Positions 22,093-53,013 of a stretch of 64,000 bases of DNA are shown one piece after another (within the stretch, counting starts at the first letter, position 1; each line of letters begins with the position of its first letter). The position numbers and the translations under genes were made by a program. The notes under the pieces are model-generated. The model saw only the letters and a list, made by a program, of their open reading frames with translations, ran no database searches and had not been told where the DNA came from. Source of the stretch: Methanosaeta sp. PtaB.Bin039 (GTDB taxonomy: Archaea; Halobacteriota; Methanosarcinia; Methanotrichales; Methanotrichaceae). The stretch spans positions 1 to 64,000 of the forward strand of contig MVQI01000029.1 of NCBI GenBank assembly GCA_002067795.1, written 5' to 3'.

Positions 22093-23802
22093 TTAGCTGA
22101 TGGACATCAGTACGTCGCCTGGTGACACCGTTGTCCCGGGCTCAATGAAGATCTCCTGCACAACCCCGGACTTGTTGGCATAGATCTGGTTCTCCATCTT
22201 CATCGCCTCGAGGATCGCCACTGTGTCGCCCTTGTTCACAGTATCCCCCTTCCTGACCTTATAGCGGATCACGACACCCTGCATGGGAACGGTGACGCCG
22301 TCTCGAGGAGCTTTCGGCTGAGCCTCCTGAATTGTTACGCCTGCTGGGGCCACCTTGACCAGGAAGGACTCCCCTTCGACCTCCACATTGAAGGCCAGCG
22401 GACCGCCGTGATGATCGTGGTGGGACGGGGCGCCGGGCTGCTTCTTCTTGACGAGGGGCTCCTCCTCGGCCTGGCCCTTCAGGAACTTGAGCGCAACCTG
22501 GGGGTAAAGTGCGTAGGTAAGGTAGTCCTCTTCCTTCTTGGCCAGGTTGAGCCCATCCACCTCTCGGACCGCGGCAGCGTACTCAGGTGGCAGCAGATCG
22601 GCTGGGCGGACGGTGATGGGCTCCTCGTCCTCCAGGATCTTGACACGCACCTTGGGATCTATCTCGGCAGGGGAGCGGCCGTAGAGGCCTTTGACGTAGT
22701 CGCGGACCTCTTTTGGCACCATCTTGTAGCGCTCTCCGGTGATGACGTTTAGGACCGCCTGAGTCCCCACAATCTGGCTTGTGGGAGTTACCAATGGCGG
22801 ATATCCCAGGTCCTTCCTTACCCTGGGGATCTCTGCTAAAACCTCTTCGTACTTATCAAGGGCGTTCTGCTCGATGAGCTGGGAGACCAGGTTTGAGAGC
22901 ATTCCTCCAGGAACCTGATACACAAGCACGTTGGTATCCAGCTTGGCGGAGATGGGATTGAATACCGGGGAGTATACCTCCATGAGCTTCTCGAAATAGC
23001 GTTTGATCTCGGTAAGAAGACCGATATCAAGTCCGGTATCGAAGCCGGTTCCCGAGAGGGCCGCGACCATGCTCTCAGTTGGGGGCTGGGAGGTGCCTCC
23101 GGATAGTGGGGATATGGCGGTATCCAGTATGTCAGCCCCGGCCTGGGCAGCGAACAGATAGCTCATGGGAGCCAGTCCAGCGGTACAGTGCGAATGCAGG
23201 CAGAGGGGCAGGCCGACCTGCTTCTTGATTGCCCGGACAAGCTGCTCGGCATCATGAGGGTTGATCAGGCCGGCCATGTCCTTTATGCATATGGAGTCGC
23301 ACTCCAGCTCCGATAGCTTTACCACGAAATCGGTGAACTGCTCGATCGTATGAACCGGGCTGATCGTGTAGGATACGGCCACCTGAACATGGGCTCCGGT
23401 CTTCTTTGCGGCGGATATTGATTTTTCCATGTTGCGGATATCGTTTACCGCATCGAAGATCCGGAATATATCCACGCCGTTTTTCGCGGCCTTCTCCACG
23501 AATCTCTCCACCACATCATCGGCGTAATGGCGATAGCCTACCAGGTTCTGTCCTCGCAAGAGCATCTGCATGGGCGTATTTGGCATGGCCTGTTTGAGGG
23601 CTCGAAGCCTCTCCCAAGGATCCTCGTTGAGGTATCGAATGCAAGAGTCGAATGTTGCCCCACCCCAGACCTCCATGGAGAAATAACCCACCTGGTCCAA
23701 GAGCTCTGCGATGGGCAACATGTCCCTAGTCCTCATTCTGGTCGCCAGAAGCGATTGATGAGCATCTCTGAAAACCGTCTCGGTAAGCTTTACCCTGCCC
23801 AT
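22093..23802 (-). CDS. pycB: Pyruvate carboxylase subunit B (biotin-carrier/carboxyltransferase)
   Basis: A 569-residue protein that transfers CO2 from carboxybiotin to pyruvate, giving oxaloacetate. Residues 1-260 are the HMGL-like carboxyltransferase barrel (ETVFRDAHQSLLATRMRTRDM, SMEVWGGATFDSCIRYLNEDPWERLR with the metal-binding Asp and His region SHCTAGLAP). A PYC/OAD domain runs to about 460. The C-terminal 75 residues are a biotinyl domain with EAMKMEN, where the Lys is biotinylated. Archaeal methanogens make this as a two-gene enzyme; the biotin carboxylase pycA is not in the window. It feeds the oxaloacetate/2-oxoglutarate branch used in biosynthesis. Confidence 0.95.
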   Translation of the reverse strand: MGRVKLTETVFRDAHQSLLATRMRTRDMLPIAELLDQVGYFSMEVWGGATFDSCIRYLNEDPWERLRALKQAMPNTPMQMLLRGQNLVGYRHYADDVVERFVEKAAKNGVDIFRIFDAVNDIRNMEKSISAAKKTGAHVQVAVSYTISPVHTIEQFTDFVVKLSELECDSICIKDMAGLINPHDAEQLVRAIKKQVGLPLCLHSHCTAGLAPMSYLFAAQAGADILDTAISPLSGGTSQPPTESMVAALSGTGFDTGLDIGLLTEIKRYFEKLMEVYSPVFNPISAKLDTNVLVYQVPGGMLSNLVSQLIEQNALDKYEEVLAEIPRVRKDLGYPPLVTPTSQIVGTQAVLNVITGERYKMVPKEVRDYVKGLYGRSPAEIDPKVRVKILEDEEPITVRPADLLPPEYAAAVREVDGLNLAKKEEDYLTYALYPQVALKFLKGQAEEEPLVKKKQPGAPSHHDHHGGPLAFNVEVEGESFLVKVAPAGVTIQEAQPKAPRDGVTVPMQGVVIRYKVRKGDTVNKGDTVAILEAMKMENQIYANKSGVVQEIFIEPGTTVSPGDVLMSIS

Positions 23803-31516: not shown

Positions 31517-34500
31517 TCAGCCGTCCAGCTCTGCGCCTTCAGTCCGGAACTCAAGACGGCACTCTTTCAGCACCTCGACCAGGTAAGCCTGCCCAGGAAT
31601 CAGGCTCTCGTTTTGCCCAAGGTGCACCCATCCGCCGTCCGGATCGAGCTTCCATATGAAGGCAGAGACCAGGCCCTTCTCCACAGCCTCCGAAAACTGG
31701 TAGCGACGATGCTCGGAATTCACCGTTATGTTCTCGGCCGTCAGACTGGCGTTCATGGGAAGCCCTACCAGGTTCCAGCCCTGGTGCAGCTTCAGCCGAT
31801 AGGGGCTCTCGACAGGCTTGCCCTTGATCTTCACTGTGAAATTCTCGGCACTATCCACCAGGTACCCGGCACCTGCTTCCAAGGATGTGACATTGGTTAA
31901 GCCAAGATCCCGCAGAGAATAGGTCCAGCCATCGGAGGCAGCCGTGAATATCCCACGATATGGCTTATCCTTGAAGTAGCGGCTCACCGAAGGATCGGTT
32001 GGACTTAGGTAGAGAGAGACCGAATTCCAGCCAGACGTTATGTTTATCGTCTGGGTTAAACCGGGGATCAGCTTGTATTCCACCACAAACGTGCGATTCT
32101 CACCAAGTCGAGGCCGGACGACCGGCCATAGGACCAGCCGGCTCGAACCAAAGACGTCTTCATCGTGCCAGACCGCCCGGCCGTTCTCCTTCACCGTGAT
32201 CTGGTCGGCATCCACCGGCAGTTCGACCTGGCCAATGATGGCGGGAGGCGCGTTGAGCATGAGCTTGCCGTCTGCGGCCTCGGTCTGTACCCAGTACAGC
32301 CAGTCCGTTGAGGCCTCCTTTTGCGGGGAGATCGTTACCTGTTCTTCGGTCCGGTTCTCGCCCGCCGGCTCTGTCGATATAGAATAGGGCAATTTTGGCG
32401 TCCTCGGCATATACGGACGAAGTGCCGGGTCTCCGATCAGCACATGGGTCGTTGCTGTCTGATTGAACATCTCCTCCATGGAGTAGGGGAAATCCACAAT
32501 CATCTGCTCGTCCAGATCCTTGTAATCAACCATTCCTTTGGCAGCGTCCATCTTCATCTGGTAAAGCTGCTCTGCCTTGAGCATTGCCTGGCCGATCGTT
32601 GCATTCTCATAGACCAGCGATTGGAAGAAACGCTTGCTGTAATCCTCGGAGACGAATATCCAGGAGAGTATGCTGTACCCGATATAGTCAACCGCCCCTG
32701 CATGGATGAAAGCCATAGCTATGGAATCCTCCAGTTCCATGGGGACATACATATCGGTATTGCCCACCCGCACGGTCTGGCCCTTGAGGCGGGCAGAGAG
32801 GCAGGCCTGGCTTGAGGTCACCTGGGGAGCCAGCACCAGCTGCTTGACCTGGGTAGCCTCCAGGTACGAGTCGGGAAGCGACCAGTAGGAGAGCTGCCAT
32901 ACGGCCTCGTTTCCATGGTGAGAGAAGAACACCATTGACAGGCCGTTGTTCATCAGCGAAGCAACCTTCTGGCTCGTGGTCTCCTCCCAGCGCAGATCCC
33001 GGGAGTCCAGGCCGGCATCAGCCAGGTATTCCTGCACACGCAATGGGATGGGGGTCCATGGCCACTCAACTGGATTTGTCACCACCAGGGTCTGGTTCTT
33101 CCAGGCTCCATCAAGCCTGTCATAGCTCAGGCTGCGGACAACCATCTGGGACGCATCGTAAAGGCTGAGTCCCATGATCCGGCCAGCCGCAACCTCGGTG
33201 AAGTTATCGTCGTCCATCTCCAGGCGCAGTTCTCTGTAGACGTCAAAGCCGAGGATGTCGGTCTCGTTCTGTTTCGTGCCTGTGGAGACGAATGGAACCG
33301 ATCCTGGATCGCCCACCACTATGATATACTTGGGCTTAAGCCCAAGGGCCTCAGCCCGCTCCTTAAGCCTGGTCTCCAGCTCGGCAGGCTCAAGGCTCTG
33401 CGGAGCTTCCGCTATATCATACACCAGGCCTTTTCGCCCGGCTGCCATCTGAGATGCAACCTGCGATAAACGTGGAACCATTGTATGGCCAAACGCGGTT
33501 ATGTTCGCGGGACGAAGCGTTGAGGTTACGTTGATGGTGTAGTTGTCGGTAGTGTGTATGTACCCGTTTCCAGACTCCACCTGGAACTTCCAGGACCCGG
33601 GGACTATCATGGGCACCTTTGCACGGTAGGTCTTGCCCGGAGCGGTCACATCCACGATGGCCTGGCCCATCCGTCCGTCAGGCGCAAGAACCCTCAAGGC
33701 CGTATACCTGGGGATTCCGTCCACGTTCCAGGTTATGTTGGCCACCCCCATGGGCATCTCCTTAGGGAATGTGATATTGGTTATCGGCCAGGAGTCCTCC
33801 ACCCGAGCCGATACGTTGAACTTCAGCAGGCTGTGGCTGATTGTCATGCCATAGTCCAGGCTCTGCTTCCACCCGGCGTCCATGGGATGAAGCATCTCCA
33901 CCTCAAGCGGCAGTGATGCTGACTCGCCAGGCTGCAGCTCATCAATCTCCCATATCAGCAAAGTCCCGTTCCAGAAAGCCCCGTCCCGGGAGATTAGCCG
34001 GCTGGATGAGGGATCTATCAGCCTGGCCTGGCCCTTGTAGCTGCTGGGCAGGCGGACCATTCTTCCGTTATAAAATGTATCTGCCAGGCTTACCTCCTTT
34101 GCTGCCTCGTCCTTGTGATTGGTGACGGTTATGTTCATCCGGACGATCTGCCCGGCCTCGTCTGACGGTATCCGGCTGGGGCTCAACTCGACGCTCAACA
34201 GCACGCCGCCGGCCAGGGCCCGTTTGGACTCCCTCTCCGGGCGTGGCGGAATCAGGCTCAAGTCCTGGGAGTTGGTCACCACGATGGACTCGACCGTCTC
34301 GTTGCGGCCAGCCATCTCCTCCAGCAGGAACTCCATCCCACCATCCATGAGCGTGAGGTTTCTCTGCTTCAGATCAGCCCTGATATTGGGCGAGACCGGG
34401 CCGGCCAGGACAACCTGGGTTGCTCCCAGGCGGTTTAGAGCCGAGATGGTCTCATTGGGCAGGACGTCACCTCCGGCCGTGAACAGCACCGGCCAGTTCA

Positions 34501-35929
34501 GGTAGGCGCCTATCGAAGCTGCCTGAAGCCCAGCCGTGTAGTTCTCGGGACAGAGGACCGCTCCTGGCGAAGAGGCCCATCTCCGACTGATCTGATCAGC
34601 CATCTCCGTGCTGTTGTTGGCTCTTATTCCGTTCGTGCAGTTCCAATAGACCTCTCCGATGCCAAGTGTGCTCCCACCCAACATGCCGATCGTCCACGCC
34701 ATTGAGGGGGAGGGCGGTTCCAGCTCCGACCAGAGAGGGCTGTGGGTCACATCATACTCGAAGGCCATCCCAGCACCGCCGCGGGACACAAGGTCCTCGA
34801 TGTACTTGACTGTGCCCTCAACGTTTTGGGTGGATATCGTGTACTCCACGTAATCGTCGCTCAGACGCACGTAGACAGGAGTGGATGTGATCTTGGCTGC
34901 CAGTGACATATCACCAGCCTGGATCGGATTTATTATGGTCAGGTCGCTGACCTCTGCCAGCTTCTCAAAGTTGTAGCCCTGGCTGCGATCAAGCGGGCTT
35001 CTTATGGCTACCCCCATCCTGACAGGTCCCAGGTCGGATGTGATGTTTCTAACCTCCCTGGCCAGGTCCAGCACTTTCTGCTCCCGCCAGGCCTGCCATT
35101 TCTGGTAATTGTAGCTGCTGGTGCCTACCTTGGTCAGCTCAAGCCCGGTATCCTTGTAGAACTCCTCTTTGCAGACATCACAGAAGCAGAAGCCCTCATC
35201 CTGGAAGCCGAACTCATAGAGTATCACTCCGCTGACCTCGTATTCATCGATGAGCTGTTCGACCTGGTTGAACAGGCCCTCCCTCACATCCGGATCGACC
35301 GGGCAGAAGAGGTCGCCAAGAGATCCGGAGGCTGTCCTGGCCAGGCCATCTTGCTGCGGTCTCTCGACCTGGACTGCGGCCTCTGCCGTCGGCGAAGGGA
35401 TTGACCAGAGGTCGTCGACCATGAGGTTGGGCGATCGCCCCTGCCTGAACCCCTCCTCGATCAGGGACTGGACAGTGGTTATCTGCTGTCCATCAGATCC
35501 GGCAGCCCTAAGGGTGACGGTGACGTAGGCTGCTATCCCCTCTTTCTTGGCCACATCCACAGCCTCCTTCACAATATCGCCGGTACCGTTGATCACCACT
35601 GCCGAGATCCCGACCGATGTCAGGCTGTGCAGGATTGCCCGAACCCCATACCGTTCAATGTCGCTCTGCTCCAACCATCCTATCCTGTCACCAGCCTGGA
35701 CCTTTCTGGGCAGTATCATCATCGGCTTTTGAGTAGCGTCATCGTCCTGCTGGCCCATGGCCAGTGGGGTGGCAGCCACGACATTATGCCAGTCGGTGCC
35801 TCCCACGAGAATCACGTCTTCCATATTCCCGGCCTTGACCCCACGCTCGAGCGGCTGGGAAACGGCGGTCGAACAGAGGAGCAGCGCAATCAGCGCTACA
35901 GTCGTTGAAATGATCTTGAAGCTGGGCAT
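31517..35929 (-). CDS. Large secreted multidomain protein with a C25 (gingipain-like) peptidase domain
   Basis: A 1470-residue exported protein. Signal peptide 1-25 (ending AVSQ). Residues about 34-105 resemble a CW_binding_2-like Rossmann unit (VILVGGTDWHNVVAATPLA). Residues 105-430 look like a TIM-barrel of the glycosidase-like type (GVILYEFGFQDEGFCFCDVC). Residues 445-570 are a second CW_binding_2 unit (LGATQVVLAGPVSPNI). Ig-like domains follow to about 820. A caspase-fold domain follows with His1004-His1005 in FFSHHGNEAVW and Cys1043 in TSSQACLSA, the His/Cys pair of C25 peptidases. The C-terminal 300 residues have two GWN-starting beta modules. Many N-x-S/T sites are present. It begins in contact with the upstream gene's stop (TAA-ATG). 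The target is unknown. Confidence 0.7.
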   Translation of the reverse strand: MPSFKIISTTVALIALLLCSTAVSQPLERGVKAGNMEDVILVGGTDWHNVVAATPLAMGQQDDDATQKPMMILPRKVQAGDRIGWLEQSDIERYGVRAILHSLTSVGISAVVINGTGDIVKEAVDVAKKEGIAAYVTVTLRAAGSDGQQITTVQSLIEEGFRQGRSPNLMVDDLWSIPSPTAEAAVQVERPQQDGLARTASGSLGDLFCPVDPDVREGLFNQVEQLIDEYEVSGVILYEFGFQDEGFCFCDVCKEEFYKDTGLELTKVGTSSYNYQKWQAWREQKVLDLAREVRNITSDLGPVRMGVAIRSPLDRSQGYNFEKLAEVSDLTIINPIQAGDMSLAAKITSTPVYVRLSDDYVEYTISTQNVEGTVKYIEDLVSRGGAGMAFEYDVTHSPLWSELEPPSPSMAWTIGMLGGSTLGIGEVYWNCTNGIRANNSTEMADQISRRWASSPGAVLCPENYTAGLQAASIGAYLNWPVLFTAGGDVLPNETISALNRLGATQVVLAGPVSPNIRADLKQRNLTLMDGGMEFLLEEMAGRNETVESIVVTNSQDLSLIPPRPERESKRALAGGVLLSVELSPSRIPSDEAGQIVRMNITVTNHKDEAAKEVSLADTFYNGRMVRLPSSYKGQARLIDPSSSRLISRDGAFWNGTLLIWEIDELQPGESASLPLEVEMLHPMDAGWKQSLDYGMTISHSLLKFNVSARVEDSWPITNITFPKEMPMGVANITWNVDGIPRYTALRVLAPDGRMGQAIVDVTAPGKTYRAKVPMIVPGSWKFQVESGNGYIHTTDNYTINVTSTLRPANITAFGHTMVPRLSQVASQMAAGRKGLVYDIAEAPQSLEPAELETRLKERAEALGLKPKYIIVVGDPGSVPFVSTGTKQNETDILGFDVYRELRLEMDDDNFTEVAAGRIMGLSLYDASQMVVRSLSYDRLDGAWKNQTLVVTNPVEWPWTPIPLRVQEYLADAGLDSRDLRWEETTSQKVASLMNNGLSMVFFSHHGNEAVWQLSYWSLPDSYLEATQVKQLVLAPQVTSSQACLSARLKGQTVRVGNTDMYVPMELEDSIAMAFIHAGAVDYIGYSILSWIFVSEDYSKRFFQSLVYENATIGQAMLKAEQLYQMKMDAAKGMVDYKDLDEQMIVDFPYSMEEMFNQTATTHVLIGDPALRPYMPRTPKLPYSISTEPAGENRTEEQVTISPQKEASTDWLYWVQTEAADGKLMLNAPPAIIGQVELPVDADQITVKENGRAVWHDEDVFGSSRLVLWPVVRPRLGENRTFVVEYKLIPGLTQTINITSGWNSVSLYLSPTDPSVSRYFKDKPYRGIFTAASDGWTYSLRDLGLTNVTSLEAGAGYLVDSAENFTVKIKGKPVESPYRLKLHQGWNLVGLPMNASLTAENITVNSEHRRYQFSEAVEKGLVSAFIWKLDPDGGWVHLGQNESLIPGQAYLVEVLKECRLEFRTEGAELDG

Positions 35930-37507
35930 TTAGGCTGCCTCCGTCTCCACTCCCAGGTCTCTGAGGGCCCTGGCAGCATTATCGTCCACCCCTCCAGCCA
36001 ATACGGCTTTGGAGAGGCCCTGAGCCTTCATCTCCTGTACAATTGCGAGCACTCTTTCGGAGATCTCCTGGTCGAGCAATACCAGCGGAGCCTCCAGGCC
36101 CTTTGCCACCTGGTAACCCTTCAGAATATCCATCTGAGAAGGCCCGCTGACCACCACCTGATCGGTTCCGTTGCCGCCCCATCCTTCGGATGCGAATACC
36201 CAGGATGTCTCCACCAGGTCAGCTCCGGCCAAGCGGGTGACGTTCATGGTTGCTGCCAGATCCCCTTCTGTGGCATTGGGAACAACCGTTGCGTCTCCAA
36301 GGATTATGGCATCGGAGTAGGGGTAAAGGTCTCTGCGAGACCCCTGGTTGAGCAATCCATCCTCCAGAGTGACCACAGGCACAACTATGTCGCCCCTGGT
36401 CGCTAAAGACGCCAGAGCGTTGTACTCTATGCGGGAGCTGGTGACGATCACCGCCCCCTCGGGTGGCATGGCCCGGATGATCACAAGCTCAGGCGGGAAA
36501 GGCACGCCCATGGAGTCGATCATCTGGACTACCAGCACGTAGCTGGCCGCCTCTGTGGCAGTGACTGAGAAATTGGACGTCTTCGGCTCCTTCTCGTTAA
36601 GCGGCAGAAATAGGGTGGAAGGCACCACAAGGAGGCTGGGGTCGGTGACCATCTCGACCCGTATCCTCTCGTCCCTCTCCAATAGCACGGTGATGGAGCT
36701 GTCGTAGGTCCTGTTGATCGCCACCACCTTCGGAACGTCTATGACAACATCGTAGGAGCGGACAGAGATTCCCACTTTCAGCCGGGCTTCTACCGAGGAG
36801 TTCTGGGACTGGTTTCCAAGCGATGTGGCAGTCACCGTCATCGTCCCCGAACCCGCAGACTCGGAGACCTCTATCTTCAATGATAGGGTACGACTGGAGC
36901 CTGATGAGAGGGGGATTTTGTATGGCAGCTCAACCTCCTCCTCATCGTCAAGGACCGTAGCCGACCACCCGCCCGGCAGATCCAGGACGTCTATAGCGAT
37001 CACATCTCTGAAACGTCCGGTGTTCTTGACCTGCAACTCAAACTCGGCATCCTTATCCGGATTGGCTTTCTTAGAAGCGGATCTGGCGTCGTCAATTGTA
37101 AGGCTGACCCCGTAGCTGTCCTGCTCGGTTACAGTTATGCGGAAGTCTATAACCTGCGGCATTGATGGCGGGATATCGTCCATGAGATAGAAGAAACCGT
37201 TGTAGATACCGGGCTTTATCTCTGGAGGAACCAGGAAGAAGACTGCCATCTCCGTGTCCTCCCCAGGCTCCAGCCCCCCTTTGAGTTTGGGCTTCTCGAT
37301 GATTATGAACTCCTTTGCATCGCCGCTCACCGTCGTGGTGGTGATCTCGGATATGGGCAGGTCCCCGGTATTGGTCAGGGTCAGCACTTTCTGCTCCACC
37401 TCCCCCGGATGCAGCATGATATCGAAGTTGGATCTATCAGGCTCAAGCTGGGCGCCGGTTGCGCCGGTCAGAAGAATCAAAATCAATAGGAGGCGTGCAG
37501 GCTTCAT
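35930..37507 (-). CDS. Secreted NEW3/COG1470-type protein with a CW-binding-like end
   Basis: A 525-residue exported protein. Signal peptide 1-19 (ATGAQ). Four beta-sandwich repeats follow: LEPDRSNFDIMLHPGEVEQK, GVSLTIDDARSASKKANPD, YDVVIDVPKVVAINRTYDSS and so on; these fit NPCBM-associated NEW3-like alpha-galactosidase-type domains (COG1470). The C-terminal 150 residues repeat the Rossmann-like pattern of CW_binding_2 (DAIILGDATVVPNATEGDLAATMNVTRLAG, SKAVLAGGVDDNAARALRDLG) also found in the next gene. It lacks a TM anchor. It forms a two-gene unit with the 1470-residue protein and may be its surface partner. Confidence 0.75.
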   Translation of the reverse strand: MKPARLLLILILLTGATGAQLEPDRSNFDIMLHPGEVEQKVLTLTNTGDLPISEITTTTVSGDAKEFIIIEKPKLKGGLEPGEDTEMAVFFLVPPEIKPGIYNGFFYLMDDIPPSMPQVIDFRITVTEQDSYGVSLTIDDARSASKKANPDKDAEFELQVKNTGRFRDVIAIDVLDLPGGWSATVLDDEEEVELPYKIPLSSGSSRTLSLKIEVSESAGSGTMTVTATSLGNQSQNSSVEARLKVGISVRSYDVVIDVPKVVAINRTYDSSITVLLERDERIRVEMVTDPSLLVVPSTLFLPLNEKEPKTSNFSVTATEAASYVLVVQMIDSMGVPFPPELVIIRAMPPEGAVIVTSSRIEYNALASLATRGDIVVPVVTLEDGLLNQGSRRDLYPYSDAIILGDATVVPNATEGDLAATMNVTRLAGADLVETSWVFASEGWGGNGTDQVVVSGPSQMDILKGYQVAKGLEAPLVLLDQEISERVLAIVQEMKAQGLSKAVLAGGVDDNAARALRDLGVETEAA

Positions 37508-39745: not shown

Positions 39746-40084
39746 TTACCCGGCATTCAGTACATAAATAGCTGAGGGGCCCAACGCAGATCCATAAGAG
39801 CTGTCACGAAGTCCCCGCTGCCCTCTATCGCCCGACACCAAGACCTGCCCCACCGAGCCCGTATGAGGGATTTTGCATCGCAAAGATATGCTGCGCGGGT
39901 CTGCCAGGACATCCCCTTCGAAATAAAGAGGTAATTGGAGCCTATGGCAGAAATTCAATTGGAGTTAGTAACCGCTCATCATCATAAATCCAAGACAACA
40001 TATAATCTGTTGTATATCGTAAAGAGGGCCCTAGAAAGCAAACCATTTAATTTGGAGAACGGATTATTCAAGAGGAGGTTTCTC
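39746..40084 (+). promoter_or_regulatory. Promoter region of the BREX cassette
   Basis: Candidate TATA boxes are ACATATAAT (39998-40006) and CCATTTAATTT (40043-40053), and GAGGAGGT (40073-40080) is a strong ribosome site for the first gene. The frame is open upstream to 39935, but that part is AT-rich and unlike BrxF. A run of CATCATCAT lies at 39977-39985. No gene is seen between the SnoaL-like gene and brxF. Confidence 0.5.
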
Positions 40085-40561
40085 ATGGTGAAGCCAATAG
40101 CTGATAAAGTTATACAAAGAATCGATCAGGCGTTAGTGCTTTACCACCGTCTTATCGTGCTAGTGGCCCCACCCTGTGGAGGCAAGACCGCTGCGCTCCA
40201 GGAGGTTCATGCGCGCACATCAGCACCGCTGATCAATGTTAATCTTGAACTGTGTAGGCGAATGCTAAACCTAGCCGAACGCCAGCGAGCTTTGCATTTG
40301 CCCCGACTACTTGGAGCACTTGTAGACGATTATGCATGCGATGTAGTTTTGCTGGACAATATCGAGGTACTCTTTGAGGTTTCGCTCATGCTAGATCCGC
40401 TACGACTGCTGCAGGGACTTTCGAGAAATAAGACTGTTGTTGTTGCATGGAGTGGCTCAATAGAAGACAATTGCTTGGTCTATGGGATCCCATGCCATCC
40501 AGAATACAAACGATATCCTTTAAGTGATTTCCTGGTAGTAAACCATAAAACCCTTGCATGA
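40085..40561 (+). CDS. brxF: BREX-3 P-loop protein BrxF
   Basis: A 158-residue NTPase-like protein specific to BREX type 3 anti-phage systems. Walker A is [12 protein letters not shown] (residues about 27-38) and a Walker B-like [12 protein letters not shown] lies near 85. The end is [23 protein letters not shown] 40085 follows GAGGAGGT and gives the usual length near 150; the longer frame adds 50 non-family residues. It is the first gene of the cassette; brxC begins 35 nt after its stop. Confidence 0.85.
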
Positions 40562-40595
40562 AGACCATTACCACAGAAAACGAGGTATTAATGCT

Positions 40596-43500
40596 ATGAA
40601 ATATGGAGATTTGATCCAATTTGAGCCAATTGAATCCGTTGTCCAGTTACGAGACGCCGACGAGGTAACGGCTGCCCGCCAACTTGTCAAAACCTACGTT
40701 GTCTCCGAAGAGATGGCTGATAAGCTGGTCAACCTCGTAATTTCTCAACTTCAGTTCGACAAACCCAGGGATAATAAGGGGCTGCTTGTTGTCGGCAACT
40801 ACGGAACGGGTAAATCGCATCTCTTGTCCGTTATCTCTGCATTGGCCGAGAATGATGATCTCGCTACTTATCTGAGCAACACAAAAGTTGCAGCCGCAGC
40901 CGTCATGATTAGTGGCCGCTTTAAGGTAGTCCGAACCGAGATCGGTGCTACGACAATGTCTCTGCGTGACATCATTGTAGCCGAACTCGAAGAACACTTA
41001 GCGGCCATGGGTGTGAGCTATTCCTTCCCTTCAGCGGATAAAGCTCCTAGCAACAAACCAGCCTTTGAAGAGATGATGAGCGCCTTCCACCAGGAATATC
41101 CCGACGATGGATTGCTCCTCGTGCTGGATGAATTGCTCGATTACTTGCGAACGCGCAAAGACCAGGAGCTGATACTTGACCTCAATTTTCTGCGCGAGAT
41201 CGGCGAGGTATGCAAAGACCTGCGATTCCGTTTCATCGCTGGTGTCCAGGAAGCCATCTTCGACAGCCCGCGGTTTGGTTTTGTCGGCGAAGAGTTTCTG
41301 CGAGTCATTAGAGCTCGCTTCGAACAGGTTCACATTGCCAAAACAGACATTAAATTCGTAGTGTCAGAGAGATTGCTTAAGAAGACTGCCGACCAGCAGG
41401 GGAAGATCAAGGATTACTTGACCCCCTTTTCTAGGTTCTACGGTCATATGAATGAGCGCATGGATGAGTTCGTGCGCCTCTTCCCTGTGCATCCCGACTA
41501 CATCGACACCTTTGAGCGAGTAACTGCAGTGGAAAAGCGTGAAGCGCTCAAGACGGTGTCGCTGGCCATGAAGAAGCTGATGGATCAAGATGTGCCTGAT
41601 GACCGGCCAGGAGTCATTGCATATGACAGCTATTGGACAATTCTGCAAGAGAATCCGTCATTCCGCGCAGTCCCAGCCATCAAGGCAGTCATCGATTGCA
41701 GCCAAGTACTTGAATCACGCATACAGCAAGTTTTCACCCGCCCAGCTTACAGACCCATGGCCCTGCGGATCATCCGCGCGCTTTCTGTTCACCGGCTCAC
41801 GACTGGGGATATCAATGCTCCACTCGGTGCAACTGCAGAGGAACTGCGCGACAGTCTATGCCTCTTTCAGCCAGGTATTGAGGGATTGGGTGGCGATCCG
41901 GCCGATGACCTTCTCTCTCAGGTCGAGACGGTTCTGCGGGAAATCCACAAAACAGTAAGCGGCCAGTTTATCTCCATAAATCTTGAAAACCGTCAGTTCT
42001 ACCTGGACCTAAAGAAGACCGAAGATTTCGATGCACTGATCGAGAAGAGAGCCGAAAGTCTTGATCTATCTCAGCTCGACCGCTACTACTACGAGGCGCT
42101 CAAGCGGCTCATGGAATGCACCGACCAGACTTATAAGACCGGGTACAATATATGGCAACGAGAGCTTGAATGGGTGGAGCGCAAAGCTATGCGCCAAGGG
42201 TACCTATTCTTCGGCTCGGCCAATGAACGTTGCACAGCGATACCGCCACGTGAGTTCTATCTTTACTTCATTCAACCCTTCGACCCACCTCGTTTCACAG
42301 ACGAGAAAAAGCCAGACGAGGTGTTCCTGCGTTTGACAAATAAAGACGATGAATTCCGCTCGTCACTTCGAAATTACGCTGCAGCCTTGGATCTCACATC
42401 CACTGCCTCAGGTCATGCCAAATCTACCTACGAATCCAAAGCATCATACTTCCTTCGTGACCTTGTTCAATGGCTTCAGAAGAACATGACCAACGCCTTC
42501 GAAGTTACCTACCAGGGGCGTTCTAAGTCCATGATTGACTGGGCTAAAGGCAGGTCAATTCGTGAACTTTCAGCCTCTAGCCCTCACGAGCGCATCAACT
42601 TCCGTGACATGGTATACACCATCGCCGGTATCTGCCTAAGCACACACTTTCAGGATCAGGCTCCAGAATATCCATACTTCTCAGTGCTCATCACTGGAAA
42701 GAACCGGCCACTAGTTGCCCAAGACGCTTTACGCGCTATCGCTGGACCGAATCGCACAAAGCAGGCCACTGCGGTGTTGGATGCCCTGGAGCTTCTTGAC
42801 GGAGATAGGCTTGATCCATCTCAATCCAGGTACGCTAAGTACATACTCTCAATGCTCAAGAAGAAAGGCCAAGGCCAAGTAATCAACCGATCCGAGGTGA
42901 TCCAGAATATCCTGGGCGTGGAGTATCTGGCACCAGAGAGCTTCCGGCTTGAGCCTGAATGGGCCGTGGTGGTGTTGGCAGCACTGGTCTACTCTGGCGA
43001 GGTGGTTCTCTCCATTCCGGGCAAGAAATTCAGCGCCACAGAGCTTCCACAACTGGCCGGCACTAGCATCGACGAACTGTTGCAGTTCAAACACATCGAG
43101 AGGCCTAAGGATTGGAACCTTCCGGCCCTCAAGGCGCTCTTCGAACTGCTCGGACTTCCGCCAGGCTTTGCCCAACAAATTACCCTGGGTAAGGACGAGC
43201 CTGTGCAGGAACTTCAGAAGTATGTCACAAGGACCGTTGAACAGGTAGTGCTTGTTCAGCAGAGCTTGCAATCAGGCCTGTTCTTCTGGGGTCGAAATCT
43301 TCTGACTGAGGATGAGGCAAAGATGCTTTACTCCAAACTGGATGCGACCAAAAACTTCCTCGAATCTCTACAGGCTTACACAACGACCGGCAAACTGAAG
43401 AATTTTCGCTACGATGCTTCAGAAGTCTCTGCCCATCGGGATGGACTTGCCTCCCTGGCTGAGATTAAAGCGCTTGAGGATCTTATAGCAGACCTCGGAT

Positions 43501-44327
43501 CGACCGCCTCGTACTTGTCCACCGCTGAGGCTGTCCTGCCTGCAAACCACGAATGGATTGAAAAGATGAAGGCGACTCGAAATGAGGTCTTGGCATCGAT
43601 CAGCGATCCCGTAAAGCGGAGTGCGGCCAATTTCCGTCAGCTGACTCAGTTCAAGCTCAGAGAACTAAAGAAAGCTTACTTGCTTTCATACCTCTCCATG
43701 CATGCCAAGGCGCGTCTGGGTGTGAATGAGGATAAGCGCAAGACCCAGCTCATGAGCGACGATAGGCTCAAGAAATTTCAGAAGCTCTCCGACATTGAAC
43801 TGATGCCGCGCCAGCAACTCTCGGACTTCCAAAAACGACTTGAAGGTTTGAAGAGCTGCGCTGCTCTCATTGAACAGGAACTAGAGGCCTCGCCGGTCTG
43901 CCCGCACTGCAACTTCAGACCAGGAGCTGAAGCTCCCGCCGCACCAGCCGCAACGATTTTGGATCACTTGGACACTGACCTTAATAATCTGGTAGATAGC
44001 TGGACCCAGACACTGCTTGCCAACCTCGAAGACCCAACTATCAAAGAGGACTTGGGCCTCCTCAAACCCGAACCGCGCAAACAGATTGACGACTTCATCA
44101 GAAAGCAGGTCCTACCGGATGACCTGGATCAGGACTTCATTCAGGCATTGAAGGACATTCTCTCGGGACTCACTAAGGTCTCGATAAAAATAGGGGACCT
44201 ACAGGACGCCCTTCTTGCAGGCGGCTCTCCAGCTACCCCAGAAGAGATGAGGAAACGGTTCGAGGGATACCTGAACAGACTTACCAAAGGAAAGGAGCCC
44301 GGCAAAGTGAGAATTGTGCTGGAGTAG
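40596..44327 (+). CDS. brxC: BREX ATPase BrxC/PglY (DUF6079 type)
   Basis: A very large (1243 residues) cytoplasmic P-loop ATPase that is a core BREX protein. Walker [13 protein letters not shown] is at about 68-79 and Walker [21 protein letters not shown] at about 172-191; an arginine-finger-like ESRIQQVF segment lies near 373. Coiled regions fill 950-1100, and one CPHC pair lies near 1108 ([13 protein letters not shown]). ATG 40596 follows GAGGT at 40582-40586. BrxC is thought to organise the complex on DNA. Its 3' end overlaps the ribosome site of the next gene (stop at 44327, ATG at 44332). Confidence 0.9.
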
Positions 44328-44331
44328 CAAA

Positions 44332-46152
44332 ATGAATCAGGAAGATTTGATAGCTCGGCTCAAGAAGTACGAATGGAATGATATCGAATTTAAAAAAGCC
44401 CAGCGTGGTGTACCGAATGACGCATATGAAAGTGTTTCTGCTTTTGCCAATACTGCGGGAGGCTATCTTGTTTTCGGCGTCGAGGACAACAAGGGATCTT
44501 TTAAAATTGTAGGGGTAATCGAGGTAGACAAGGTTCAGAACGATTTCCTGAGTTGTTTGCGGTCCGTTGGTAAGTTTAACCGCCCGATTCCAGTTCAAGA
44601 AAGCACATTAGAGCATGAAGGAAGGACCTTGTTGGTTTTCTATGTACCCGAAGTGCGTCGCATGGACAAACCAATTTACCTGAATGGCGACGTCACCGAA
44701 TCCTACATCCGACGTGGTGGTGGAGATGAGCGATGTACTGGTGATGAAATCAAGCGCTTCCTTCGTGATGCAGGGAGTATCACTTACGACAGCGAGGTAC
44801 TGTCCGATATAGATCCAGAAGATTTTTTTGACCCCTCATCCGTGGCTTGGTATAGGCGCGTACTTCAGGACAAACAAGGAAAACGGCATGCTGAATTGAA
44901 CGATGTTGAATTCCTCTATGAATGGGGATTTGTGGTAGAATCAGATAAAGAGCTTCGACCCACACGCGCTGCAGTATTGCTTTTCGGAAAGACAAGGTTA
45001 TTGCGCCACTTATTGCCGCGTGGCATTGTAGATTACCAGCGCATCGACGCAAGATTCGAAGATTGGTCACCTGAACATCGGTGGAGCGATAGGGTCATCG
45101 TGGAAGACAACATTATCCAGGCCTGGCAAGTGCTCGTCGAGAAATATTTTCGCCTTGCTGACAGACCGTTCTCGGTAGATGTTGTAACCTTGCGTCGCCA
45201 TGATGATCCGCCAGATTACATATCCTTCCGTGAAGCTGCCATTAACCTGCTAATCCATCAGGATTTTGGCGACCAAACTAGAAAGCCGGTTATAAAGATA
45301 TTCTCGGACCGCACGGTTTTTTGGAATCCGGGAGATGCTTTCGCCACCATGGATCAGCTCTTGGACCCGATCGAAAAAGAAGTCCGAAATCCTGCTATTG
45401 TAGCGGCTTTTCGACGCATCGGGCTGAGCGATCAGGCTGGCACGGGCGTTCGTTCAATTTTCGGCAATTGGCAGCAGTTGGGATTTGTCCCTCCGAGCAT
45501 CGTTAATGACAAGGGGGAGAAGACCTTCGAGATCACTTTGCTCAAAGAGATATTGTTAACCGAGGAGCAACGGCTATTTCAAGCCCAGTTGGGCGTTAGG
45601 CTCAGCGAGCAAGAAGCTGCCGTTTTTGCATATGCCTGCCGTGCCGGTGCAGTCAGCGTTACAGATGCAAAGGCAGTGATTGGACGCGGCTCTGGAGAAG
45701 CCGAAAGAATATTGGACCACTTGGTCACCCAAATCCTTCTTGCAGTTGTGGAGCCAAGAATGAGCTGGGAGCTGGCACCTCATCTCCAAGAGAGGTTTGC
45801 TCATGGTGACCAAGTACCTCCCATGGCGAGAGACTTGGTCACTGACCAACCTGAGTCGGAGGCAGTCAGCTTGGTCACTCCAAAACTGACCAAGTTCACC
45901 GAACAGCAGCGAAAGATTCTGGCGCTTTGCGAGGTGCCACGAACCCAGGCTGACCTCATGAAGACACTCGGAGTATCTCATCGCACCTTTTTCCGCCGCA
46001 CGCATTTAGAGCCTTTGATTAAGGCAAATCTGGTGCAAATGACCCATCCTGAAGAGCCCAATCACCCGAACCAGAAATATGTAATCACTGAGGCCGGGCT
46101 TGGCCTTATCTCCTCTTGGAGGGCCAATGCAGAAGGAAGAGGTAATTCATGA
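44332..46152 (+). CDS. AlbA_2/GHKL-ATPase/winged-helix protein inside the BREX cassette
   Basis: A 606-residue protein, start ATG 44332 after GGAG. Order of domains: AlbA_2 (Schlafen-like) nucleic-acid-binding domain at about 15-130 (DIEFKKAQ, AFANTAGGYLVFGVEDNKG), HATPase_c_4 (RecG C-terminal-like) at about 290-350 (FREAAINLLIHQDF, ISFREA), and a C-terminal winged helix at about 520-590 (FTEQQRKILALCEVPRTQADLMKTLGVSHRTFFRR). COG2865-type proteins like this are usually called transcriptional regulators. It is not one of the six standard BREX-3 genes. It could regulate the cassette or act as an additional defence effector. Transcribed with brxC (5-nt gap). Confidence 0.75.
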   Translation: MNQEDLIARLKKYEWNDIEFKKAQRGVPNDAYESVSAFANTAGGYLVFGVEDNKGSFKIVGVIEVDKVQNDFLSCLRSVGKFNRPIPVQESTLEHEGRTLLVFYVPEVRRMDKPIYLNGDVTESYIRRGGGDERCTGDEIKRFLRDAGSITYDSEVLSDIDPEDFFDPSSVAWYRRVLQDKQGKRHAELNDVEFLYEWGFVVESDKELRPTRAAVLLFGKTRLLRHLLPRGIVDYQRIDARFEDWSPEHRWSDRVIVEDNIIQAWQVLVEKYFRLADRPFSVDVVTLRRHDDPPDYISFREAAINLLIHQDFGDQTRKPVIKIFSDRTVFWNPGDAFATMDQLLDPIEKEVRNPAIVAAFRRIGLSDQAGTGVRSIFGNWQQLGFVPPSIVNDKGEKTFEITLLKEILLTEEQRLFQAQLGVRLSEQEAAVFAYACRAGAVSVTDAKAVIGRGSGEAERILDHLVTQILLAVVEPRMSWELAPHLQERFAHGDQVPPMARDLVTDQPESEAVSLVTPKLTKFTEQQRKILALCEVPRTQADLMKTLGVSHRTFFRRTHLEPLIKANLVQMTHPEEPNHPNQKYVITEAGLGLISSWRANAEGRGNS

Positions 46153-46258
46153 GCATTATCATCTGGCAGGACAGACATACTCCATCAACCAGCCGACTTG
46201 TACACTGCACAAGTTCGCTCCCTAGCAGAATGGTTGGTGACTCTTAAGGTCGCTAAGA

Positions 46259-49075
46259 ATGAGGAAACCCATGAAGAAGCATAAACGCATCGAAGGCAAC
46301 AGCAAAATCCAATTGGGGACGGCAAAACCACAAGGGCCGGTAGAATGCCTGGGCATGAGCTTCCCGGACGATAATGCCCGTCGAGAGCATTTCCTTGGCA
46401 TTCTGAGGGAGAAGCTGAAGGATCCGGAATTCCGGAAGATAGAAGGATTCCCCATCGGCTCAGATGAGGATATCCTGGCGCTGTCAGACCCCCCATATTA
46501 TACCGCCTGTCCGAATCCGTTTATTGCTGACTTTATAAAATACTATGGCAAGACATATGACCCGACAAAGCCCTACAGCCGTGAGCCTTTTGCAGCAGAT
46601 GTGAGTGAAGGAAAGAACGACCCAATATATAATGCACATTCTTACCACACCAAGGTTCCGCACAAGGCCATCATGAGGTACATCCTCCATTATACAGAGC
46701 CAGGGGACTTGGTATTTGATGGATTTTGCGGAACAGGGATGACGGGTGTAGCGGCTGCCTTATGCAGAGAATCCCGAAAAGATCAAATGACGTTTGCCCG
46801 AAGAACTTTAGAGGGACAGCGATGGGCAATTCTCGCGGATCTTTCACCTGTTGCAACATTCATCGCAAGTAACCTGCTTAGACCTGTTGATCGGACCGAG
46901 TTTCAAAAGGCATTTAAGGCAGTTTGTGCAGTCGTTGAAAAAGAGTTTGGGTATCTCTATTCAACCCACCATTCAGGATGGAAGGTTCGTGACAGAAAAA
47001 ATGTAGGACACAGACAATATGCAAATAATTATAATACACAAGGTAGCATTGAGTTCACTCTCTATTCTGATGTCGTTAGATGTCCTGAATGTACAACTGA
47101 AATTACGCTTTACGAAGTGCTCGTAGACGAGAAAAGCGACTCTCTCAGGTCAGATATTAAATGTCCTAACTGCAAGGCGGTAGTTCCAGAATCAAAATGG
47201 GAGTCGGTGAATACTGCATTCTACGATACAATTCTTAAAAAGACCATCCAACAACTACGCATTGAACCGGTTCTGATCAACTATAGCGTCGGATCAACAA
47301 GATATGAGAAGTTTCCCGATGAGCAAGATAGAGAGAAATTAGCTACGGCTGAGAGGCTGCTTGCTACTGTAGGGTTACCGGCAATAGCTCTAATCGAGGG
47401 TAAGGAAACACAACGGAATATTCCAATTGGAATAACTCACTTACATCATTTTTTTACCCATCGTGAGCACCTATTTGTGGCAGCTCTATTAAAAGAAGTA
47501 CAGAAATATCCTGACAGTAATATACGTCAGATGCTGCTTTTTGCCCTAACTGCTTCGCTTCCATACGCATCAAGGATGCGTCGGTTTCGTGCAGATCGAA
47601 AAGGAGGCGGTCCGTTGTCTGGCACTCTGTATATAAGCTCATTAATTACGCCTCCACATGTATTGAAGACGTTTCTGAGAAACGCAGCAACTATTGCAGA
47701 TAGCCTGACGCCTCCCGTTGATCCCATAGGTGGCCACATAATCAGTACGCAAGATGCAGGGCACCTAAATCAAATACCAGATTCAACTGTCGATTACATT
47801 TTTACAGATCCTCCGTTTGGTCATAACTTCGATTATTCAGAATTGAATTTCTTTTGGGAGGGATTACTCGGAGTTGTTACTAACCAAGAGCATGAAGCCA
47901 TAGTTAGCGTATCACAGGGGAAGGATATTGATAAGTATCGTGATCTTATGGAAAAGAGCTTTTCGGAATACTACCGCATCTTAAAGCCTGGGCGATGGTT
48001 GACCGTAGAATTTTCCAATACAAAGGCCTCTGTGTGGAATGCAATCCAATCTGCTCTAGAACAAAGCGGTTTTGTTGTAGCCAATGTGGCTTCACTCGAT
48101 AAGAAGCAGCACTCGTTTAAGGCAGTAATGACTCCTACGGCTGTTAAGCAAGACCTCATAATCTCGGCCTACAAGCCCAATGGCGGTCTTGAAGACCGTT
48201 TCAATCTTGAAGCAGGTACCGAAGAAGGTGTCTGGGACTTTATCCGCACTCATTTAAGGCAGCTTCCAGTCTTTGTATCCGATAAAGACGACGTCGAAGT
48301 AATCGCCGAGCGTCAAAATTTCCTGCTCTTCGATTGCATGGTAGCTTTCCACGTTCAGCGCGGTGTAACAGTTCCGCTATCCGCTGCAGAGTTTTACGAA
48401 GGGCTTGTCCAGAGATTCGCTGAACGTGATAATATGTACTTCCTTTCCGAACAGGTGGCTGAGTACGACAAAAAGCGCATGACAACTAAAGATGTTCTAC
48501 AGCTTAAGCTATCAGTTACAGATGAATCCTCGGCCATCCTTTGGCTCAAACAGCAGCTCCTCAAGAAGCCCCAGACCTTTCAGGAACTTCACCCGCAATT
48601 CCTCAAGGAAATTGGTGGAGGCTGGCAAAAAAATGAGAAGCCATTGGAGTTATCCGAACTGCTCGCACAAAACTTCTTGCGCTACGATGGCAAGGGCGAG
48701 GTGCCACACCGCATTCACAGCTACTTATCTACTAACTTCAAGGACCTTCGCAACTTGCCCAAAGATGATGAACGCCTGCGAGCCAAAGGCAAAGATCGCT
48801 GGTATGTGCCCGATCCTAACCAGGCAGGGGATCTGGAGAAGCTGCGGGAGAGGTCGCTGCTCAAGGAGTTTGATGAGTACCGGATGGCAGGCCAGAAGCG
48901 TCTAAAAGTCTTCCGCCTCGAGGCCGTCCGCGCTGGCTTCAAGAAAGCATGGCAGGAGCGAGACTACGATACCATCATCTCTGTGGCCCGCAAGATTCCT
49001 GAGAACGTTCTGCAGGAAGACCCAAAACTCCTCATGTGGTATGACCAGGCGCTCACACGTTCCGGAAAGGAATAA
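46259..49075 (+). CDS. pglX: BREX adenine-specific DNA methyltransferase (PglXI-like, Zn-ribbon)
   Basis: A 938-residue SAM-dependent DNA methylase of the COG1743 group used by BREX-3. Catalytic and SAM motifs: LSDPPYYTACPNPFIADF near 75-92, VFDGFCGTGMTGVAAALC near 154-171 (SAM loop), TDPPFGHNFDYSELNFFWEG near 517-536 (second N6A/N4C motif). A zinc ribbon with CPEC near 277 and CPNC near 303 lies between them. C-terminal about 250 residues are helical. MRKPMKK offers two starts, 46259 or 46271. It probably marks self DNA. The 106-nt gap before it has only short frames. Confidence 0.88.
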   Translation: MRKPMKKHKRIEGNSKIQLGTAKPQGPVECLGMSFPDDNARREHFLGILREKLKDPEFRKIEGFPIGSDEDILALSDPPYYTACPNPFIADFIKYYGKTYDPTKPYSREPFAADVSEGKNDPIYNAHSYHTKVPHKAIMRYILHYTEPGDLVFDGFCGTGMTGVAAALCRESRKDQMTFARRTLEGQRWAILADLSPVATFIASNLLRPVDRTEFQKAFKAVCAVVEKEFGYLYSTHHSGWKVRDRKNVGHRQYANNYNTQGSIEFTLYSDVVRCPECTTEITLYEVLVDEKSDSLRSDIKCPNCKAVVPESKWESVNTAFYDTILKKTIQQLRIEPVLINYSVGSTRYEKFPDEQDREKLATAERLLATVGLPAIALIEGKETQRNIPIGITHLHHFFTHREHLFVAALLKEVQKYPDSNIRQMLLFALTASLPYASRMRRFRADRKGGGPLSGTLYISSLITPPHVLKTFLRNAATIADSLTPPVDPIGGHIISTQDAGHLNQIPDSTVDYIFTDPPFGHNFDYSELNFFWEGLLGVVTNQEHEAIVSVSQGKDIDKYRDLMEKSFSEYYRILKPGRWLTVEFSNTKASVWNAIQSALEQSGFVVANVASLDKKQHSFKAVMTPTAVKQDLIISAYKPNGGLEDRFNLEAGTEEGVWDFIRTHLRQLPVFVSDKDDVEVIAERQNFLLFDCMVAFHVQRGVTVPLSAAEFYEGLVQRFAERDNMYFLSEQVAEYDKKRMTTKDVLQLKLSVTDESSAILWLKQQLLKKPQTFQELHPQFLKEIGGGWQKNEKPLELSELLAQNFLRYDGKGEVPHRIHSYLSTNFKDLRNLPKDDERLRAKGKDRWYVPDPNQAGDLEKLRERSLLKEFDEYRMAGQKRLKVFRLEAVRAGFKKAWQERDYDTIISVARKIPENVLQEDPKLLMWYDQALTRSGKE

Positions 49076-49078
49076 AAA

Positions 49079-50164
49079 ATGCCAAGAGCCAAAAGGGATG
49101 TTGCAGAGCTTAAGAAGCGAGCCGTTAACTCCTTGGTGCTTGGAATCGAACTGTTCAATCGACCACATGAGCAAGGGCGCTCCGAAAGCGTCCTGATCCT
49201 CTTGCATCATGCCTTCGAGATGCTTTTGAAGGCAATTATCAAGGACAAGACGGGAACAGTTCATGCAAAGGGGGAGAAATACTCCTATGGTTTCGATAAG
49301 TGCTTGGAAATCGCCCAGAACGAAATTAAAGTGATCTCTCCTGATGAGCGCGCTACTTTGTCGATTCTTGATGCTCACCGAGACATTGCCATTCACTATT
49401 ATCAAGAGGTATCTGAAGATCTTCTTTATCTACAGGCCCAAGCGGCGGTCACATTATTTGATGATTTGCTGCAATTGGTCTTCACGGAGAGGCTTGCTGA
49501 TTGTATACCGAAACGAGTTCTGCCAATTTCGACGCGACCGCCGAAAGATCTAAAAGTGCTGATAGACAGCGAATTGAGCCAAGTCGACGAACTACTACAG
49601 GCAGGGAGTCGCAAAGGAATCCAAGCAGCAGCCAGATTGAGGCCTATTCTAGCTATGGCAACTGCTACTCGCGAAAACGCGGAGCGAGTAACTGAAAGTG
49701 AATTGCGAAAAGCTATAAGCAGAAGGCGGCAAGGAGATGACTGGAGTATCATACTTCCTGAAGTTGCTCAGCTCAAACTTGATACCCAGGGAGACGGGAT
49801 CCCTATTTTCCTTCGTATCAAGAAAGATGCTGACATTGCTGTTCGTATTGCCAAAGACAACGAGCCAGTCATTGGAACATTGATCAAACAAGAAATCAAC
49901 ATCTGGGACAAGTACAACCTTGGCAGGGATGATATTGCCGAGAAGCTAGGTATATCTGGACCAAGAACAAGCGCTCTGATATTTGAGTTGAATATTCAAA
50001 AAGATCCAGAATGTTTCAAAATATTGCGAAGAAAATCTTCAATATTCAAAGGTTACAGCAAAAAGGCATTGGAGCAGCTCCAGTCAGCCATGCTAGGTGG
50101 AATAGATATAGATGCCATATGGGAAAAGCATAGAGATCGGTTTAGAGCCAAAAAGCGGAAATGA
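49079..50164 (+). CDS. DUF3644 HEPN-domain protein in the BREX cassette
   Basis: A 361-residue protein beginning 3 nt after the methyltransferase stop (TAA then AAA before ATG). The N-terminal 130 residues are helical DUF3644: SVLILLHHAFEMLLKAIIKD, then LDAHRDIAIHYYQE, which contains R101-x4-H106, the R-X4-6-H motif of HEPN ribonucleases. The central 120-250 region has TESELRKAISRR. The C-terminal domain (about 260-350) contains a predicted winged-helix (LGRDDIAEKLGISGPRTSALIFEL). This is a HEPN RNase candidate fused to a DNA-binding domain. It occupies the position where BREX-3 has the helicase BrxHII. Function within BREX is inferred. Confidence 0.75.
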   Translation: MPRAKRDVAELKKRAVNSLVLGIELFNRPHEQGRSESVLILLHHAFEMLLKAIIKDKTGTVHAKGEKYSYGFDKCLEIAQNEIKVISPDERATLSILDAHRDIAIHYYQEVSEDLLYLQAQAAVTLFDDLLQLVFTERLADCIPKRVLPISTRPPKDLKVLIDSELSQVDELLQAGSRKGIQAAARLRPILAMATATRENAERVTESELRKAISRRRQGDDWSIILPEVAQLKLDTQGDGIPIFLRIKKDADIAVRIAKDNEPVIGTLIKQEINIWDKYNLGRDDIAEKLGISGPRTSALIFELNIQKDPECFKILRRKSSIFKGYSKKALEQLQSAMLGGIDIDAIWEKHRDRFRAKKRK

Positions 50165-50224
50165 TGGGTAGTTTAACAGGTATATGGTCCCTATGCACTT
50201 CGAAAAGCTTGTAATAATAGGCGA

Positions 50225-52243: not shown

Positions 52244-53013
52244 TAAGACGAACAGATCAGATCGGATTCAATCAGCGAGTGCGGATGGAATGGTTTGAAC
52301 AAACCGCCAATTTGGCCCTAGCTGGAAATGACGAAGCTATGGTTAGAGAGGCTTTGCAGGAGCTTCTAAAAGACAAAGTCTCTGTGGGTAGCCAAGCCAA
52401 GCGCAGTAATCGTGAAAAGGTCATCACAATTCTCCTGAAAACGTGGATAACTGTTCCGACCGATCTTGAGGAAATGCGTGACGAAGGGCTTGAATATTTA
52501 AAACGTCTTCCGCGATCAGATCATCTGATCATACATTGGGGCATGGCAATGGCTGTTTATCCGTTCTGGTCTAGTGTAGCTTTTCAGGTGGGTCGACTAT
52601 TGAGACTTCAAGATTGTGCAGCTGCCGCTCATGTGCAGCGCCGTATCCGGGAGCAATATGGCGAGAGGGAGACGGTCTCCCGCTCAGCCCGCCGAGTGTT
52701 ACGTTCTTATCTAGACTGGGGCGTGCTTCAGGAATCCAATTCAAAGGGGATCTACACCGCCGGAAAGACGCTTTACATTGATGACCCCCGCTTGATATCT
52801 TGGCTGATTGAGACTGATCTTCATGCTCGGGTCAGCGGGTCGGCACCATTGAGGGAATTACTTGATAGCCCGAGTTTATTTCCATTTAGGATCAAGCCTA
52901 TATATGCAGAAAACCTTATGACAGTATTGTCCAGAGTCGAGATTTTCCGCCAAGGGTTGGATGAAGATATTGTGATGCTGCGAAAACCAATCACGAAAGA
53001 AGGTGCACCCTGA
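52240..53013 (+). CDS. BrxA-position protein of the BREX cassette
   Basis: A 257-residue helical protein overlapping pglZ by 4 nt. Sequence includes RNSREKVITILLKTWITVP-like helices, LPRSDHLIIHWGMAMAVYPFWSSVAFQVGRLLRLQ, and RRVLRSYLDWGVLQESNSKGIYTAGKTLYID, the last resembling a winged-helix with a dimer wing. The BREX-3 gene order predicts BrxA here (a DNA-binding family), and the length of about 200-260 and the wHTH-like layout fit. I assign it by position and shape, not by a recognised motif. The gene ends at 53013 with TGATG, which overlaps a short decayed frame. Confidence 0.6.
   Translation: MIRRTDQIGFNQRVRMEWFEQTANLALAGNDEAMVREALQELLKDKVSVGSQAKRSNREKVITILLKTWITVPTDLEEMRDEGLEYLKRLPRSDHLIIHWGMAMAVYPFWSSVAFQVGRLLRLQDCAAAAHVQRRIREQYGERETVSRSARRVLRSYLDWGVLQESNSKGIYTAGKTLYIDDPRLISWLIETDLHARVSGSAPLRELLDSPSLFPFRIKPIYAENLMTVLSRVEIFRQGLDEDIVMLRKPITKEGAP

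Follow-up and report, generated by a model that had tools for sequence, protein, structure and literature searches.

We analyzed a 64,000-nucleotide stretch of the archaeon Methanosaeta sp. PtaB.Bin039 (contig MVQI01000029.1, positions 1 to 64,000; hereafter the window), in which two adjoining genes encode secreted proteins that we named P2 and P1. Our tentative interpretation, drawn from sequence comparisons, is that these proteins are co-expressed and might form an exported complex, held at the cell envelope and carrying an active cysteine peptidase of clan CD (family C25). The elements of this interpretation are not equally secure. P1 is very probably a surface peptidase, and its catalytic activity is predicted with good confidence. 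An association of P1 with P2 appears fairly likely, and the chances are about even that the two proteins share a module of three CWB2 units. Proteins of the sheath, of the plugs, or of the surface layer (S-layer) are suggested as substrates with some hesitation. The pair is a concrete candidate for the enzymes by which the amyloid-like archaeal sheath and its plugs are assembled, opened, and split, and it would also reveal the workings of archaeal C25 peptidases and CWB2 anchors. C25 peptidases and CWB2 domains are of known kinds. Their combination, the predicted division of the anchor, and the distribution of the pair appear to be new, and a literature search retrieved nothing on these or on the pair itself.

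The genes of P2 (35930..37507, 525 residues) and P1 (31517..35929, 1,470 residues) lie on the minus strand, as do all the features of the pair described below. The initial annotation had placed them head-to-tail through a TAA-ATG junction, which reads ...GCC TAA ATG CCC (35927..35932), and both open frames were confirmed. It had also described a secreted pair with a possible cell-surface role. Each protein indeed starts with a Sec-type signal peptide, covering residues 1–19 of P2 (37451..37507; MKPARLLLILILLTGATGA; residues 2–15 are helical in the AlphaFold2 model) and residues 1–25 of P1 (35855..35929). Beyond these, no membrane segment was found in either protein, and a check for C-terminal sorting signals, which had been proposed, revealed no recognizable motif in P1 or P2. 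N-X-S/T sequons are abundant: 30 in P1 against 7.5 expected (maximum of 15 in 500 shuffles) and seven in P2 against 2.2 in shuffles. Together with the signal peptides, these counts fit exported glycoproteins, and the cell-surface role is well supported by the signal peptides and the sequon excess of P1. In eight relatives, the stop codon of P2 and the start codon of P1 also adjoin directly in a single frame, and we therefore considered stop-codon readthrough from P2 into P1. This possibility was rejected because in most relatives the two genes are out of frame and 20–60 bases apart, and because P1 possesses a signal peptide of its own.

The pair was searched for in 50 genomes of Methanotrichaceae (33 of good quality, representing 11 genera), 192 genomes of the class, and 392 of the phylum. 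P1 and P2 were each identified in 48 of the 50 Methanotrichaceae genomes, including all 33 of good quality and all 11 genera. They are single-copy, adjacent, and in a conserved order, and their homologs are 36–55% identical over the full length. Stops marked inside some P1 matches were taken as terminal, the frames being full length there (~1,450–1,550 residues). As full-length homologs are kept adjacent in the same order, P1 and P2 are real genes. Across 21 gene neighborhoods (20 relatives and the window), the pair alone is constant and no other neighboring gene is conserved. In genus g8, the neighbors encode, as judged by eye, radical-SAM-like proteins, a phosphomannomutase-like protein, and a glycosyltransferase-like protein. 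In the class sample (192 genomes), other families of Methanosarcinia lacked the pair and showed matches only to a C-terminal module of P1 with GWN motifs. In the phylum sample, the only other full-length matches to the N-terminal barrel of P1 come from one family, f11. Two McrA sequences of this family carry a CCX4CX5C patch, which is typical of, and diagnostic for, the anaerobic methanotrophic archaea of group 1 (ANME-1). We therefore assigned f11 to ANME-1.

The peptidase domain of P1 spans residues 850–1171 (32417..33382) and matches Pfam PF01364 with an E value of 1e-33 and 117.6 bits for a cut-off of 23. A profile built from 33 P1 relatives recognizes gingipain R over residues ~846–1036 (1cvr; E = 2.5e-6), and in this match His1005 of an HG motif aligns with the gingipain R HG. 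Both results bear out the earlier assignment of P1 to the C25 peptidases. His1005 (codon 32915..32917) and Cys1043 (codon 32801..32803) are invariant in 37 family sequences and are also kept in the three full-length ANME-1 copies that we compared. The catalytic dyad had been proposed as His1004 or His1005 with Cys1043; the conservation retains His1005 and Cys1043, whereas His1004 is variable. Asp163 of the S1 pocket of gingipain RgpB aligns with a proline or variable position of P1, and Glu152 likewise corresponds to a position without conservation. Since the S1 Asp163 is absent, specificity for arginine is not predicted. The AlphaFold2 model of this region has a predicted local distance difference test score (pLDDT) of ~30, too low to judge the caspase-like fold that the initial annotation had proposed. 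Elsewhere in the genome of the window, a further C25 match is partial and scores 27 bits (G000:C60:13521-13988). Genera g7 and g11 encode several extra, lineage-specific C25 proteins.

Upstream of the peptidase domain, residues 36–420 of P1 (34670..35824) form a (beta/alpha)8 barrel similar to those of GHL10, GHL6, and GH42, modeled with eight strands by AlphaFold2. GHL10 (best E = 1.1e-7) was recognized in 21 of 24 P1 relatives, and GHL6 in 12; the GHL10 match of the window's own P1 falls under the Pfam cut-off. Four cysteines, C209, C248, C250, and C253, are invariant in 24 barrel sequences and are placed like the CP...CxCxxC stretch of the GH42 enzyme 3tts. The P1 position aligned with the GH42 acid/base glutamate, at the end of strand 4, varies between Q, E, L, and V, in a weak pairwise alignment (E = 0.29). 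In ANME-1 P1, the acidic residues D358 and D359 are not kept and E391 is changed to D. Because of this variability and of these changes, we read the barrel as a glycan-binding or structural domain that is probably non-catalytic. The glycosidase-like barrel of the initial annotation thus stands at the level of the fold, through GHL10 and the four cysteines, and not at that of the acid/base residue. P1 also contains an immunoglobulin (Ig)-like/DUF11 region (residues 571–810; 33500..34219) and the C-terminal beta module with GWN motifs (residues 1285–1463; 31541..32077), the sole part of P1 with matches in other Methanosarcinia and in unrelated bacteria.

Residues 20–345 of P2 (36473..37450) correspond to beta-sandwich domains of Ig/NEW3-like type; about residues 7–241 of P2 are also found in ANME-1 P2. 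The NEW3 label that the initial annotation gave to P2 is weak (E = 0.04). The nearest NCBIfam match of P2 is choice_anch_T (E = 1.6e-5), with 24.1 bits for a cut-off of 70.

A cell-wall-binding module common to both proteins had been noted earlier, and profile searches substantiate it. Complete CWB2 units occupy residues 433–524 of P1 (34358..34633) and 424–523 of P2 (35939..36238); compared profile to profile, they match with an HH probability of 93–94% and an E value of ~1e-7. P2 also contains an incomplete unit without the first strand-helix element (residues 352–420; 36248..36454), and P1 the start of a second unit (residues 525–561; 34247..34357), which repeats residues 433–469 at a shift of 92 residues. 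This shift is the best of all offsets in seven of eight starting windows of the comparison (family average) and ranks 1, 2, and 1 in the three ANME-1 copies of P1. Neither chain carries three tandem CWB2 units: P1 has one and a partial unit, P2 a partial unit and one. P2 of the window alone matches the CWB2 family PF04122 with E = 9e-4, below the Pfam cut-off, and P1 exceeds this cut-off in several relatives' genomes. When P1 and P2 segments are joined, all 12 such joined segments match PF04122 (best E = 9.9e-12). P2 matches Cwp6, a Clostridioides difficile protein of solved structure, with E = 1.3e-6. We had predicted a three-unit arrangement spanning P1 and P2 ahead of any model or Cwp6 alignment. 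A profile of joined P1 (427–550) and P2 (349–525) segments from 12 genomes aligns with Cwp6 in one stretch, profile positions 13–258 on chain positions 139–402, crossing the junction with a gap of five residues. In the reversed order, the match splits into two, the P1 part still coming first. We also modeled a fusion of P2 with residues 1–600 of P1, the TAA being read as a residue, from eight naturally paired rows and otherwise unpaired ones. In this AlphaFold2 model, the CWB2 elements, including the partial unit of P1, have pLDDT values of ~80–93.

Four of 51 ANME-1 genomes contain the pair: G260, G498, and G499, which belong to one genus, and G511. ANME-1 P1 is 35% identical to that of the window. 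ANME-1 P2 is homologous with E values of 1e-38 to 1e-45, over profile positions 7–241 only. In three ANME-1 genomes, membrane segments are inserted after the DUF11 region of P1, as two hydrophobic segments separated by KKGGRGR (L184:6342-11204, L218:4472-9343, and L219:2628-7502). With this insert, P1 is attached to the cell in another manner. The P1 homolog of G511 (L217:2297-6931) lies in two frames of 533 and 1,004 residues, broken inside the CWB2 region, which may be an assembly error or a real split. A further ANME-1 genome, G248, encodes a 2,851-residue protein (L208:3109-11664) with a CWB2-like and a weak C25-like stretch that is otherwise unlike P1.

A 2024 survey reports SH sheath proteins in all Methanotrichales and in 40% of ANME-1, as well as exchange of their genes between these lineages; its comparative genomics revealed no other protein associated with the formation of sheath or plugs (PMC11576556). 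As a query we used a putative SH protein of 243 residues, secreted, clustered, and multicopy (G046:C1:703903-704634). It matched 21 of 21 Methanotrichaceae genomes, with 4–19 matches each. The SH profile matched 5 of the 51 ANME-1 genomes, all of the genus that includes G260, G498, and G499, so that the pair is present in three of the five genomes of the one ANME-1 genus with Methanothrix-type SH matches. This co-occurrence has a hypergeometric P of 0.0019 when relatedness is ignored and effectively adds a single lineage. In G511, the pair is present but no SH match was obtained. We did not accept the SH matches as proof of a sheath link because the profile represents only the Methanothrix type, and SH proteins of the ANME type may escape it. 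In genus g7, an SH-like gene lies ~2–3 kb from the pair (L079:15025-15558; also nearby in G006 and G009). Neighboring genes of group c2 were considered as candidate sheath proteins and rejected, as they are not SH-like. The sheath remodeling suggested by the initial annotation is a proposal that the phyletic distribution, all Methanotrichaceae plus an ANME-1 genus bearing sheath proteins, now backs.

Under our preferred interpretation of an envelope-held P1–P2 complex, the CWB2 units of P1 (one and the start of a second) and of P2 (the remainder and a third) would pack into a three-unit module resembling that of Cwp6 and SlpA. P1 and P2 would thereby hold each other, and the joint module would attach the complex to a layer of glycan or protein at the surface. 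The Ig-like domains of P2 would serve as a stalk and the barrel of P1 as a glycan-binding domain, and the peptidase would trim or remodel sheath, plug, or surface-layer proteins while filaments grow, divide, or split. In its strongest form, this proposal would involve a three-unit anchor with one repeat divided between two co-translated proteins, the peptidase being retained on the envelope only when correctly paired, and a dedicated sheath or plug protease of sheathed archaea that Methanotrichales and ANME-1 share together with sheath genes; we consider this version rather unlikely. Several observations weigh against the envelope-held complex with a shared module. The fused model reaches a predicted template modeling score (pTM) of only 0.45, a direct profile comparison of P1 residues 520–565 with complete CWB2 units was not significant, and posterior probabilities across the partial unit are low when it is aligned with Cwp6. 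The joined order gains only ~5 bits over the reversed order on Cwp6, and the Cwp8 score is no better in the joined order. ANME-1 P2 stops before the CWB2 part at all four loci; the shared module is therefore dispensable in some lineages. No neighborhood link to sheath genes was observed besides the SH-like gene of genus g7. Finally, full-length homologs are absent elsewhere in the phylum sample, which is expected to include sheathed Methanomicrobiales; any sheath role is thus not universal.

The ANME-1 loci also lend themselves to another arrangement, in which P1 alone forms a CWB2 trimer, with partial second units swapped among three chains. P2 would then be an accessory protein of the surface, and its CWB2 units would function separately. 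ANME-1 P1 keeps its complete and partial units although its P2 lacks CWB2, and neighboring units are known to exchange strands in SlpA (PMC8881574). However, P2 of Methanotrichaceae carries just the part that is missing from P1, in the right order relative to Cwp6, and the two genes are always linked; we regard such a trimer as possible but doubtful. Whatever its anchoring, P1 might have an inactive peptidase domain and act as a structural adhesin or scaffold, considering its many adhesive-type domains and the lack of conservation of the gingipain S1 residues. This is very unlikely in view of the histidine and cysteine conserved throughout the family and in the ANME-1 copies.

The role of an active P1 might also differ from sheath remodeling. 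Its membership of the C25 family, the recurrence of its C-terminal module in other secreted proteins, and its only NCBIfam match, a PorU-type model (E = 0.22), would suit a maturation peptidase or transpeptidase that cleaves and attaches exported proteins, similar to PorU, the C25 sortase of type IX secretion. This match is not significant (9.6 bits for a cut-off of 450), archaea are not known to have a type IX secretion apparatus, and a C-terminal tag common to a set of substrates was neither sought nor found; such a role is quite improbable. P1 might otherwise be a general secreted protease for nutrition, defense, or housekeeping, with no tie to the sheath and distributed by ancestry and by the exchange of genes among Methanotrichales and ANME-1. 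As SH genes passed between these lineages (PMC11576556), others may have done so too. The co-occurrence in ANME-1 comes down to essentially a single genus, and G511 departs from it. Against this explanation, the extra C25 proteins are lineage-specific, whereas the 11 genera invariably keep the pair together as a single copy, and its hosts, the Methanotrichaceae, are acetate specialists. We consider a general protease unlikely.

Two other features of the window were recorded. A BREX-type phage-defense cluster on the plus strand (39935-53013) encodes BrxF, BrxC/PglY (DUF6079), a Schlafen/AlbA ATPase-like protein, a PglXI methylase, a DUF3644 protein (PDC-S19), PglZ, and BrxA. On the minus strand, 22093-23802 encodes a B-type subunit of pyruvate/oxaloacetate carboxylase with a biotinyl domain.

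Compared with known systems, P1 resembles the C25 peptidases RgpA, RgpB, Kgp, and PorU in having the HG and cysteine motifs in the right order. Unlike them, it is fused to an N-terminal barrel and a CWB2 unit, is archaeal, and always has an adjacent partner gene. Its barrel shares with GHL10, GHL6, and GH42 barrels the strand order and a four-cysteine putative metal site, but its acid/base position is variable, and in ANME-1 its acidic positions have been lost or altered. Like the C. difficile proteins Cwp6, Cwp8, and SlpA, P1 and P2 together hold about three CWB2 units, in the order of Cwp6. These units are, however, divided between two chains, the break falling within a unit, have no known archaeal ligand, and in ANME-1 are in P1 only. 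The pair shares with the archaeal SH proteins (PMC11576556) a distribution over Methanotrichales and part of ANME-1; no sequence relation was seen between them, and the SH proteins are multicopy and structural, whereas the pair is single-copy.

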